DNA from: Leucosporidium creatinivorum
Taxonomy: Eukaryota; Basidiomycota; Microbotryomycetes; Leucosporidiales; Leucosporidiaceae
Assembly: GCA_001600635.1 (NCBI GenBank)
Contig: BCKL01000027.1
Location: forward strand, 273,289-337,288
Length of the DNA: 64,000 nucleotides
Reading direction: 5' to 3'
Part shown: in pieces, positions 44,450 to 56,391 of the stretch
Numbering within the stretch: the first letter of the stretch is position 1
How the letters are laid out: each line of letters opens with the position of its first letter
Notes under the pieces: generated by a model
Database searches by the model: none
Seen by the model: the letters and a program-made list of their open reading frames with translations, nothing else
Told to the model about the DNA's origin: nothing
Made by a program: the position numbers and the translations under genes

Positions 44450-47400
44450 ATGGACCACCTCGGAGGACCGCATCTGCTGATGGAGTTTGCTCGTGCGGGA
44501 GTGTCCAACCAAGCCTCGCCCGTCGCTGGCTCGTCGACGATGCATTCGTCGCATCATTCGACGCCGGACGGAGCGAGCAGGAAACGGGCCCGAGACGACG
44601 GGAGCAGCGGCGAAGATGGAGAGGGAGAGGAGGATCAGGATATGAAGCCCATGGGAGGAGCCGGAGACCAGCAGGGCGGAGGAGGGCAGATGCAAAGAAG
44701 CTGTGAGGAATGCAAGGTGAGTCTTAGCTAGCCGAGCTAACAGCGTGAGATGTAGCTGACCATCCTACTCCCCTTCTAATGCATTTGCTCCCTTTTGAGC
44801 AGAGGAGGAAGGTTAAAGTGAGGAGCCCAGCTTTCGCTCGAGCGCTCGCAAGCTGAAGCTGACCTTTCGCTGCTGCACAGTGCGATCGTCTCGTCCCGTG
44901 CGGCAACTGTAGGAGACGTGGAACCAGCGCTTCTTGCAGTGCGGAAAGCACCAAGCCTCGCCCACCGCGCCGAACCAACTACGCGCTCGCTTCGGACGTC
45001 GACCGACTCACCCAGCGACTGGTCGAGGTCGAGAAGATGCTCAAGATTCGACCAAACCCTTCGTCCAACACTCCAGCATCGGCCACGACTACACCACACT
45101 CGCACCTCCAGCAACAGCACCCCAATCCTCACCTGCCTCGCCGCGCTCCTTCGGACCTCTCCCACTCCAACCCCGCTACTCCCTCTGTCCTCCAGCAACC
45201 TCACCGCGACTCTCCCGCCGCCATTGGAAGCGTAGAGCACGAAGTCGACGAGCTCGACTCGGACCCGGATGTCAGCAACCTCGAGCGAGCAGCCACGACC
45301 CTCGAAGCAGCGGCCTACGACTCTCGCGGCGCCGCCAACCACCGCGCTGTCGATTCACTCCCCTTCTTCGACAACCTCACCTCCTACAACCAAGTCGGCG
45401 CATCCGTCCTGCGCTTGACGCGCAACGGCGGCGGTCCCGAGGAGCTGGAGCTCACTTCGGCCTACACCAGCATCCTCGCGCCGCCGATCGAAAGCTGGTG
45501 GAGCTGTGCCGCTGAGATGGGACTCGACCTGCTGTATACCAAGGAGGAGGATATCGCTTTGGCGAGAGGACGAGCTTTGGCCGAGGTCCTGAAGCTGCTG
45601 CCGAGAAAGGAGGACTCGTTTGCCCTCGTCAAGAGGTACTTCGCCGACAGTCCGTCGTGGATGCTCAACTCGACTCATGCAGTCTTCTTCTATCCTGGTG
45701 AGTCTTCCTATCTCCCTTGACATCTTGAACCTAGCTGATGCCCTCTCGCAGAGCACGAGCGACTTTGGGAGATGGTCGAGCAAGGCCGATCGCTCGAGGT
45801 CGATTGCCTCTGGCTCAGCGTCCTCTTCATGGTCTACGCCCTTGCATGCGGAGGAGGCTTTCGCGACGAGCAGCCCGTCTCCGAGTCGTACACTGGACCT
45901 CATTCGTCCGTCTTCTACGGCGCTGCTCGTCGGCTTCTCCACCTCGGCGACTGGAGTGGTGCGCCGAGAGTCAGGACTATCCAAACTGTCGTGCTCATGT
46001 GCCAGGTCAGTCGAGCTCTCTCTCTCATTTTAAGTCACTCGCTGATGCCCTTTTACAAACAGTGGGTGCAAACGGCTTCCTTCGGCGGCGAGGCCGGTCG
46101 CCTTCTCACCTGGCTCGCTGGCGCTGTCCGCGTCGCTCAAGCTCTCGGCCTGCACCAACTTGGCGAGGATCCCGAGATCATGCCACCGGACGACCGTGCT
46201 TGGCCGCCGGGGAAGAACGCTCGCAAAAGGCAGATGGCGCTGAGGCGTAAGTCGCCGAAGCAAGCCTTCGTCCGCGCAGCTGACTGACCTTCACCGCCTG
46301 CAGTCTTCTCGAGTCTGAGGCTTGTCGACTAGTATGTGCTATCGTCGACTTCTCTCGCACACTCTCCTAATCTCTGCTCGTCTACAGCTCAACATCGAGT
46401 CGCTACCGAGCCTACGTGAGCCCTTAGCGTTCTACAGCTTATCGCCGAGCTCACTTCGTCACCCCCTACTACAGCTCCTCAACCCCAACCACATCACTAC
46501 TGCTCCCATCGACAACATCGACCTCCCCGCCGCCTCCCCGACCGACTGGCAACTTCAACCGCTCTCCCGCGATGTCATCACCGACGCCTCGTTCGAGTTC
46601 GCCAAATGGAGGATGATCGAAGCTGCTCTTGAGATCTTCGAGACGTTGACCAACAAGTCGACCTTCTCCTACGACCAAATCCTCCGCCTCGACGCCCACT
46701 ACCGAAAAGTCCTCGCTGAGCTTCCTTCGGTCTGGCAGCCTGTACCGCCAGGCGCTCCTCTCGGTACGCCCGAAATGCGTTGGAAGCGCCATGCTTGCCA
46801 GGAGGCCATCCACAACCGCCTCGCTCGTCTCCATCGCCCTTTTCTCACCAAGGGCTTCCAGGAGGGCTCGCCGTACCGCTTCTCGTCCGAGGTATGTCTT
46901 CTACTGAGCTGAATCGATGTAAGTAGAGTGCTGACGAGCTCGTGCGCGAATACAGGAGTGCGTGGCTTCCGCTCGGGTGGTCATCAGCTCGCATCATCAA
47001 ATCATGGACGTCACCAACTGCATCTGGTTTAGCTACAGTCATGCTCTGAGTGAGTTGAAGCTGAAGCTCTCTCGAAGAGCTGTTCCCGTCTACCGGGCGA
47101 GCTTTCGCTGACCGCTCTCCCTTCGCAGCTGCTGCTCTCATCCTCTTCGCCGACCTCTTCAAGTGAGTCGTCACTTCTCTGCGATCCCTTTCACGGCGCC
47201 GTCCGAAAAATCGTCTTCTCCTGCAGCTGCTGACCCCCTTCTCGCATCTAGCGCCATCGACACCGGCTTACCCGCCGCCGAGCTCGACAAGCGCAGGTGC
47301 GCTGCTCTCTGGTTCTTTTCTACCACATGGAGAAAGTCGAGCTGACCTGTCGCACTCGCAGTGAATTCCTCGTGCTCGCTTCGGTCATCTTCTCCCGTCA

Positions 47401-48150
47401 TCACGAGATCGAGTCGTCTATTCTTCGAGGCGTTGCTCAGCAGGGAGCGAAGGTCATCTCGTGAGTCTCCTCGCACGTCCTTAGGGTCCAGCTCGCTAAT
47501 ATTGCCGATGCGCTTCAGTGGGCTCTTCATGGCGGAGCAGAAGCGCCGTCACATCCGTGACAACAGCGCCGCTGGCCCCTTGCCCGAGACGTTCGCCCAG
47601 GTGAGCATCCGAGCTCGCTCGCCGGCTCTGTAAACCTCGCTGACCTTCCCTCACTCCTCTATAGATCTTGCAACAGATCACGCGCGAGCTCGACCCGAAA
47701 TCGCCGTCCCAGCCGACTTCACATCTCGAGGAGCCGCTGCAGGCGACAGCAGCAAACCGGCTCGCTCCGTTCGCCTCGGCCCAGGTCTATCCTCCCCAAA
47801 ACCACCGGGCTCCACCCGCCCAAGCCTCATCACTCTACCCTCCCTCTTCTTCCGCTCCTTACCCCGGCCCCGTCGCCCCTTCTTCGCACCAGCAGCAGCA
47901 ACAACAGCCTTCGCAGTCCTTCCAGAGCTACGACCCGACTCTCGCGCCGTTCGGAGCGGCTCCACCTCAGCAGGGAGTCAACGGCGGTGGCTACTACCCT
48001 GGTACCTACGACCCTGCATATACGGAGGGCATGTTTGACTGGAGCTGGTTGGATGTGGGAGGCGATGGATCGCTGTTGGCGGGAGCGGGGATTGATGGAG
48101 GCGCTATGGCGGGTGTTTCGCAGTTCGACGAGGTGCTCAGCGGTTGGTGA
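44450..48150 (+). CDS. Zn2Cys6 fungal transcription factor (949 aa)
   Basis: Fourteen exons: 44450-44716, 44803-44817, 44881-45697, 45752-46005, 46063-46246, 46304-46331, 46388-46415, 46475-46891, 46956-47049, 47129-47162, 47252-47296, 47362-47460, 47519-47600 and 47665-48150. The binuclear zinc cluster is SCEECKRRKVKCDRLVPCGN then CRRRG, and it is assembled from three exons, the middle one only 15 nt (RRKVK). The fungal-specific middle homology region follows, with SASFGGEAG-like ASFGGEAGRLLTW, AQALGLHQLGEDPE and YSTSSRYRAYLLNP. The C-terminus is rich in Gln and Pro. It should bind DNA with CGG half-sites in the nucleus; targets are unknown. A 2-oxoglutarate oxygenase gene lies convergent 152 bp away. 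Confidence 0.92.
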
Positions 48151-48302
48151 GCGGTGTGGACGAGGTGTCGTAGCTGTAGATATGCGCAAGACGGACAGGA
48201 CTTTTCGCAGATCATACTCGGCTTGGGAAGCTCCGCTGCTGGGTGTGGCCTTTAGCGGCGGTAGCGCTGATATGTACAAGCTCTCGGTTCCATCTCGCGC
48301 TA

Positions 48303-55002: not shown

Positions 55003-56391
55003 CTACTCTGGGATCCCGAACAGCGCACAAGTATTCCTATATGTCTGCTCCGCGACCTCCTCCACGCTTACTCCCTTCAACTGACTCACGACCCACGCGA
55101 CCTGCCCCGTCGAGCAAGGCTCGTTTCGGCCTTTGACGCCCTTGCCTGCTACCCAGCGCTCCTTCTTGACCATCGGAGGGATGTAGAGAGGCGCAAGATG
55201 AGAGTGGGTGGTAGAAGAGGTGATCGTCGATAGGTGAAGGTGGGAGGCATGGGAGGGTCGGATCTGCGAAGGCAACAGGGTAAGGACGAGCCGGCGAGAG
55301 AAGAGCAAAAAGACCGGAGAGCATACCTCGCACCATGGGCAGTCGGACTCGATCATGATCTTGTCTAGAGGTAGCTGACGAACGCACTCGACGTTCTCGG
55401 GCGTCTTGAGCGAGCAGCTGCGAAAGGGGAGGAGGTTCAGGCTCGGCGAAGAGACGGCGCTAGGTCTCAGCTTCAGGCTCACCCACTGCAGGAGGGAGTA
55501 GGTTCAGCTGATGTTCTTCTACGCTTATCGCGATGCCTCGTGGACACTCACTTGATGCCAATGTAGAAGCCGAGCTCGATGCACTCCAGCGCCTGCTCCA
55601 AGCTCTCCGAATGCGAGTGCACGACACCCCGCAAAGGCTTGCCGTGGGCTTTGATGATGTCGATAAAGTCCCGATGAGCGGCTCGGGAGTGGAGGAAGAG
55701 GGGAAGGTCGAAGCGTGAGGCCAGCTCGAGCTGAGGTGGGAAGTGCTTGAGCTGGACGTCCTTCGGGCAGAGGTGGAGGCGATCGTAGTCGAGTCCACAC
55801 TCACCGACTGGGAGGATTAGAGATCGTCAGTTCGTGCGGGCTGGGGAGCAAGGGAGAAAACCGAAGCTCACCAGCCAGCACTCGGCCCTCCGGACCCTTG
55901 TTCTCCTCGATGACCTTTGCCAGAGCTTCGAGATACGCATCGGGTCCACCAGGGTACTCGTCAAACTCCTTTGCTCGACACGGGTGGCATCCAGTCGTCG
56001 CGTAGAGGCCGGCTGAAGGGGGAAGGTCAGCTCATGAGCGCCGAGGACGGGCCGAAATCGTGCTCACCGTGCTCCTTCGCCAGCGCGATCACTTCCTTGC
56101 TCCCACTCAAGCAATCTCCCGTCAACAGTTGAGTTCCTACACCGGCTGCTCGAGCTCGCTCCAGGATCTCGAGGAAGTCGTCTGCGCACGGGCGGAGAGT
56201 GAGCTTTGAAGGCGGGATGAGAGGCTGTACGAGCTCACCTGAATGAGCTTGCTTTCCATGATAGTTTCCACGGAAGACTGGGTCGCCTAGGTTGCTGCCG
56301 ATGTCTGTAGAAGCAAGCACAGTGAGCTCGAATCTGACACAGCCGGCGAGCGCAACTCACCGACGAGTTTGGGAGGAGAAGGAGCAGCCAT
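55003..56391 (-). CDS. TatD-family metal-dependent DNase, TATDN1-like (320 aa)
   Basis: Eight exons on the minus strand: 56391-56361, 56304-56239, 56181-56068, 56012-55872, 55807-55552, 55485-55483 (3 nt), 55417-55327 and 55263-55003. Family blocks are DIGSNLGDPVFRGNYHGK, GLYATTGCHPCRAKEF, VGECGLDYDRLH, LFLHSRAAH, GVVHSHSES, GFYIGINGCSLKT and MIESDCPWCEIRPSHA. The metal ligands (Glu in GECGLD, His in LHSR, His in VHSHS, Asp in ESDCPW) are all present. TatD proteins are 3'-5' exonucleases linked to DNA repair and apoptotic DNA breakdown. NGCSLKT needs the 3-nt exon TGG between two canonical introns; skipping it would give NCSLKT. The gene is divergent from the next across 119 bp. Confidence 0.9.

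Follow-up and report, generated by a model that had tools for sequence, protein, structure and literature searches.

The gene for a TatD-type nuclease in Leucosporidium creatinivorum, a basidiomycetous yeast of the Microbotryomycetes (Leucosporidiales), raises the question of whether three nucleotides can stand as an exon of their own. The window analysed here is a 64,000-nt stretch (C27:273289-337288); the genome comprises 63 contigs and 27.7 Mb. Its minus strand carries a gene that is modelled with eight exons and a TATDN1-type product of 320 aa (Table 1), and an interval of 134 nt between exons 5 and 7 can be read either as a single intron or as two introns separated by the trinucleotide TGG. 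A preliminary description of this DNA had placed TGG between CTGCAG and GTGAGC, with introns of 66 and 65 nt on its two sides, and exactly this arrangement was recovered on the minus strand, where the order is ...GGCTTCTACATTGGCATCAA/GTGAGT...CTCCCTCCTGCAG/TGG/GTGAGC...CCCCTTTCGCAG/CTGCTCGCTCAAG (slashes mark splice borders). Both flanking introns are in phase 2, with 608 and 611 coding bases upstream. Judged by its sequence context, TGG (55485-55483) is very probably a genuine spliceosomal exon that would normally be included, because it stands between ordinary GT-AG introns and, when included, gives back a glycine that nearly all listed relatives have. By size it is a micro-exon, 3 nt long between canonical introns whose splice-site scores are ordinary for the genome.

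Table 1. Features of the TatD gene and of a second candidate micro-exon, in window coordinates.
Feature	Position	Strand	Length	Basis or remark
Exon 1, ATG start	56361..56391	-	31 nt	gene model
Exon 2	56239..56304	-	66 nt	gene model
Exon 3	56068..56181	-	114 nt	gene model
Exon 4	55872..56012	-	141 nt	gene model
Exon 5, ends ...GGC ATC AA	55552..55807	-	256 nt	sequence and gene model
Intron 5, GTGAGT...CTGCAG	55486..55551	-	66 nt	CTGAA at -22
Exon 6, putative micro-exon TGG	55483..55485	-	3 nt	completes AAT (Asn203), gives GG of Gly204
Intron 6, GTGAGC...TCGCAG	55418..55482	-	65 nt	CTGAA at -23
Exon 7, begins C TGC TCG CTC AAG	55327..55417	-	91 nt	sequence and gene model
Exon 8, TAG stop included	55003..55263	-	261 nt	end counted from the 320-aa product
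Probable micro-exon AGGAGGAAGGTTAAA (RRKVK)	44803-44817	+	15 nt	ab initio model, gene about 44450-48211

The coding consequence of the trinucleotide is simple. Joining AA, TGG and CTGCTCG gives Asn-Gly-Cys-Ser, while skipping TGG gives Asn-Cys-Ser with the frame kept and Gly204 lost, as the preliminary description had argued on both counts; the protein reads GFYIGINGCSLKT with TGG and GFYIGINCSLKT without it. Retention is not compatible with a full-length product, as a stop codon is met at codon 204 if intron 5 or both introns are kept and at codon 205 if only intron 6 is. It is conceivable that splicing from the outer donor runs to some other acceptor further downstream; single introns with GT-AG, GC-AG or AT-AC borders, at least 40 nt long and keeping the frame through SLKTPENV, were enumerated. 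Besides the plain skip there are four, all leaving from the donor at 55551, yet with them the Asn is followed by an insertion of 8, 14, 16 or 20 unrelated residues and none yields Asn-Gly-Cys-Ser, which makes use of such an acceptor extremely improbable. A recursive splice site, in which no nucleotide would be left between acceptor and donor, was also considered and ruled out, as TGG separates the AG from the GT and serves both frame and motif.

The protein family provides the measure of how much this glycine matters. Pfam identifies the product as a TatD DNase (PF01026, 182.7 bits over 27). Its best relatives among solved structures are those of human TATDN1, and the (G/A)xN motif of Class I is present as GSN at its N-terminus. 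In human TATDN1 the metal ligands are given as Glu112, His149, His174 and Asp222 (PMC10085689); the corresponding residues here are E120, H157, H181 and D229, as read from alignments with the human numbering matched by motif. On this sequence evidence the product is assigned to the TATDN1 group of Class I TatD nucleases, with predicted exonuclease and AP endonuclease activity. Other TatD-domain matches in the same genome (L002 and L003, on C5 at about 799-802 kb) apparently represent one or two further TatD-like genes. Glycine occupies the position in 118 of the 120 homologues listed, out of 2963 found, and the Asn before it and the Cys after it are present in all 120. It is likewise found in 38 of the 39 relatives in alignment A1, and in the structure entries for human TATDN1 and a yeast 3'-5' exonuclease. 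The comparison with red-yeast orthologues that the preliminary description had proposed thus comes out in favor of TGG, and the residue appears to be one that the family requires. The two listed homologues lacking it are the deposited L. creatinivorum protein P0001, with a gap, and P0083, with Phe. The latter, a public record from Sympodiomycopsis kandeliae, reads VNFCSMKT and could reflect a mis-modelled intron at the same position. The restored Gly lies just after a β-strand, between metal-ligand residues of the nuclease; in the AlphaFold model of P0001 the site is at the end of strand 198-202, ahead of helix 209-217. From its position between H181 and D229, Gly204 would face the active site.

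P0001 itself ('tatD related DNase [Leucosporidium creatinivorum]', a public record of 319 aa) is the closest listed relative of the window product, to which it is 95% identical in A1 while being shorter by one residue. It lacks exactly Gly204 and reads Asn-Cys-Ser, so that it is the precise skip product of the window gene. The preliminary description is supported by the sequence, with the qualification that this deposited protein speaks against a micro-exon. At face value, P0001 could mean that the 134-nt interval is one intron, that TGG goes unused and that the TatD protein of Leucosporidium has truly lost its glycine. The frame is kept in such a protein, Pfam still matches P0001 well (176.7 bits), and its AlphaFold model is confident overall (mean pLDDT 96.7, with 97.3 for P0002). 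The Pfam score of the window product also changes little, from 182.7 bits with Gly to 178 without. Against a true loss stands the conservation of the glycine and its neighbors described above. The pLDDT of the deletion block is 92 in P0001 as opposed to 98 in P0002, but this is weak evidence, because block 181-190 is lower too (88 and 93). Alternatively, TGG may be real but regulated, so that both forms of the protein are made and splicing toggles a single residue. An exon whose length is a multiple of three can be skipped in frame, P0001 shows the other form, and in Trichoderma micro-exons have been reported to switch isoforms (PMC11121469); conservation of the Gly, on the other hand, speaks against a common need for the short isoform, and we consider regulation of this kind very unlikely. 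That a one-glycine toggle beside the nuclease active site is conserved in Leucosporidium, with splicing tuning the enzyme and P0001 a real isoform, has in our view only a slender chance of being right. The annotation of P0001 probably joined the outer splice sites and missed the 3-nt exon, the alternative being a real skip form. An annotation error is favored because the Gly is conserved and because micro-exons are known to be missed. The authors of a study on Fusarium CYP621A state that all gene-model transcripts but one are wrong at a 1-nt exon (PMC12940212), and the smallest micro-exons of plants are described as mostly unannotated (PMC8831610).

If TGG is an exon, its introns should look like those of the rest of the genome. 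A simple gene finder was trained on 264 kb (the window and C5:1-200000). Its first run merged genes and over-called introns, and the counts from that run were discarded, although this cruder run, which had called introns 5 and 6, seeded the starting splice matrices. For the final matrices and length table, 318 introns predicted between exons of at least 45 nt were used, with introns 5 and 6 excluded; these reference introns are predictions with errors among them, and the codon table took in the TatD gene itself. The finder calls TGG as an exon, although in its second run it still gives the gene a false last intron (55089-55003). Relative to the 318 reference introns, the donor and acceptor of intron 5 fall at the 91st and 85th percentiles, and those of intron 6 at the 43rd and 83rd. 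Inclusion of TGG scores 10.57 (introns 11.27, coding -0.70) and skipping 3.96 (introns 4.17, coding -0.21), under a fixed penalty of -9 per intron that we chose and that is counted twice against inclusion. This preference argues against the reading of the interval as one intron. Length points the same way, as introns 1 to 7 of the gene model measure 56, 57, 55, 64, 66, 65 and 63 nt and the reference median is 65 nt; a single intron of 134 nt would be long here given that the gene's other five span 55-64 nt, but 29 of the 318 reference introns reach at least 134 nt, so length does not exclude it.

The putative branch motif is less typical. An exact CTRAY motif is absent from the tails of introns 5 and 6 and present in 221 of the 318 reference introns; the genome prefers CTGAC (157 of 318 tails) over the CTGAA that both carry. 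It was also considered that the two introns, which have CTGAACCTNCTCCC in common, are recent copies of each other; the idea was dropped because a score as high is reached by 9.7% of 5,000 random intron pairs. Two further 3-nt exon calls by the gene finder were rejected. One, AGG at C5:183267, relies on a GTCCGT donor that scores low and, lying near the N-terminus, could apparently be skipped without a frame change as well; the other, CCA at C5:58709, belongs to a low-scoring model (33.7).

Could so small an exon be a chance arrangement of splice signals? If at least 45 nt must remain to either side, the 134-nt interval contains no AG-N(1-30)-GT exon other than TGG. When the interval was shuffled 20,000 times with its dinucleotides preserved, any YAG-N3-GTRAGY so placed arose in 41 shuffles, and one that restores the Gly (TGG or CGG) in none. 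The 55 other reference introns with a length of at least 98 nt all lack an internal YAG-N(1-15)-GTRAGY core with 45 nt on each side. Both strands of the 264 kb were scanned for the complete architecture (GTRAGY, 45-90 nt, YAG, N3, GTRAGY, 45-90 nt, YAG), with the reversed sequence as control; it occurs twice in the former and not at all in the latter. The second match, TCG at 55807-55805, also lies in the TatD gene and is regarded as a coincidence created by a GTGAGT within the coding sequence for the G-E-C motif, where exon 5 begins. That hexamer (55804-55799, minus strand), inside the stretch coding for this metal-site motif and 3 nt past the intron 4 acceptor, is a possible cryptic donor in its own right. 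Summed over exon lengths of 1 to 12 nt there is no excess in the 264 kb, with 9 matches in the real sequence and 10 in the reversed control. Architecture alone is for this reason weak evidence, and we make no claim that the genome is rich in such exons. It is the coding requirement that turns weak evidence into strong. Good splice sites midway through the interval, placed so as to bring back precisely the missing Gly, leave it very unlikely that the interval is one intron and the residue truly lost.

How, then, would a 3-nt exon be spliced? Short introns in this fungus are presumably recognised as units (intron definition), and with introns of about 60 nt it would be natural for splice sites to pair across each intron. 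Only 3 nt separate the intron 5 acceptor from the intron 6 donor, so that the two could hardly be occupied together, and the two introns would consequently be removed one after the other. Should intron 5 leave first, TGG would become the tail of exon 5, and its donor would then follow an exon of normal size. Should intron 6 leave first, TGG would become the head of exon 7, with normal use of the CTGCAG acceptor. By analogy with published cases, stepwise removal in either order is the most likely scheme. Recognition across a micro-exon has been argued to be sterically infeasible, with intron definition and PRP-40 invoked instead (PMC8378409), and intron definition with one-after-another removal has been proposed for a 1-nt exon (PMC4674806).

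A second micro-exon is probable in the window, in the ab initio model of a transcription-factor gene on the plus strand, where a 15-nt exon encoding RRKVK would lie within a Zn(II)2Cys6 cluster. It sits between CEECK and CDRLVPC and is flanked by introns of 86 and 63 nt. With it the product matches Zn_clus at 27.8 bits against a Pfam cut-off of 21; for the form without it, which was cut to 397 aa, no Pfam family was reported. The same kind of domain is reported to be affected by a micro-exon in Xlr2 of Trichoderma (PMC11121469).

The preliminary description considered 3 nt to be near the lower limit for spliceosomal exons; it is not the published minimum, as 1-nt exons have been described from Arabidopsis (PMC4674806) and Fusarium (PMC12940212). 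A close parallel is the P450 gene CYP621A of Fusarium, where the tiny exon also belongs to a fungal nuclear gene, completes a conserved Gly codon, lies in a gap roughly double the normal intron size (139 nt, against 134 nt in TatD), and is missed by nearly all deposited models (PMC12940212). That exon is 1 nt long, breaks the frame if missed and was confirmed by RNA reads (PMC12940212), while the putative exon TGG is 3 nt long, frame-neutral, part of a TatD gene in a member of the Basidiomycota, and predicted from sequence. The 1-nt exon of Arabidopsis APC11 is similarly ultra-small, constitutive and mis-annotated, and its authors favor intron definition with stepwise removal of two introns; it differs in being from a plant, 1 nt long and experimentally tested (PMC4674806, PMC8831610). 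Exons of the same length, 3 bp, with canonical CAG-exon-GTRAGT-like borders have been described in Drosophila homothorax and others, although these are animal genes and in homothorax the 3-bp exon is a shorter alternative version of a larger exon (PMC7392893). Among basidiomycetous yeasts, bglA genes with introns of about 60 nt contain micro-exons that were determined against cDNA, the shortest being 5 bp in Sirobasidium magnum and 6 bp in Rhodotorula minuta, where ten exons are below 30 bp; these are longer than TGG and belong to another gene family (PMC9142197). The matches listed in our literature searches on micro-exons included none from a TatD gene and none from Leucosporidium.

If true, the 3-nt exon of this basidiomycetous yeast joins the few ultra-small fungal exons reported. 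Because the frame stays intact when TGG is omitted, automatic annotation gives no warning, and P0001 appears to carry such a silent error. This suggests screening the proteomes of fungi for proteins in which one conserved residue is absent at the site of an intron. The locus also offers a compact test of how splicing deals with two introns 3 nt apart in a short-intron organism, where recognition across the exon seems impossible.
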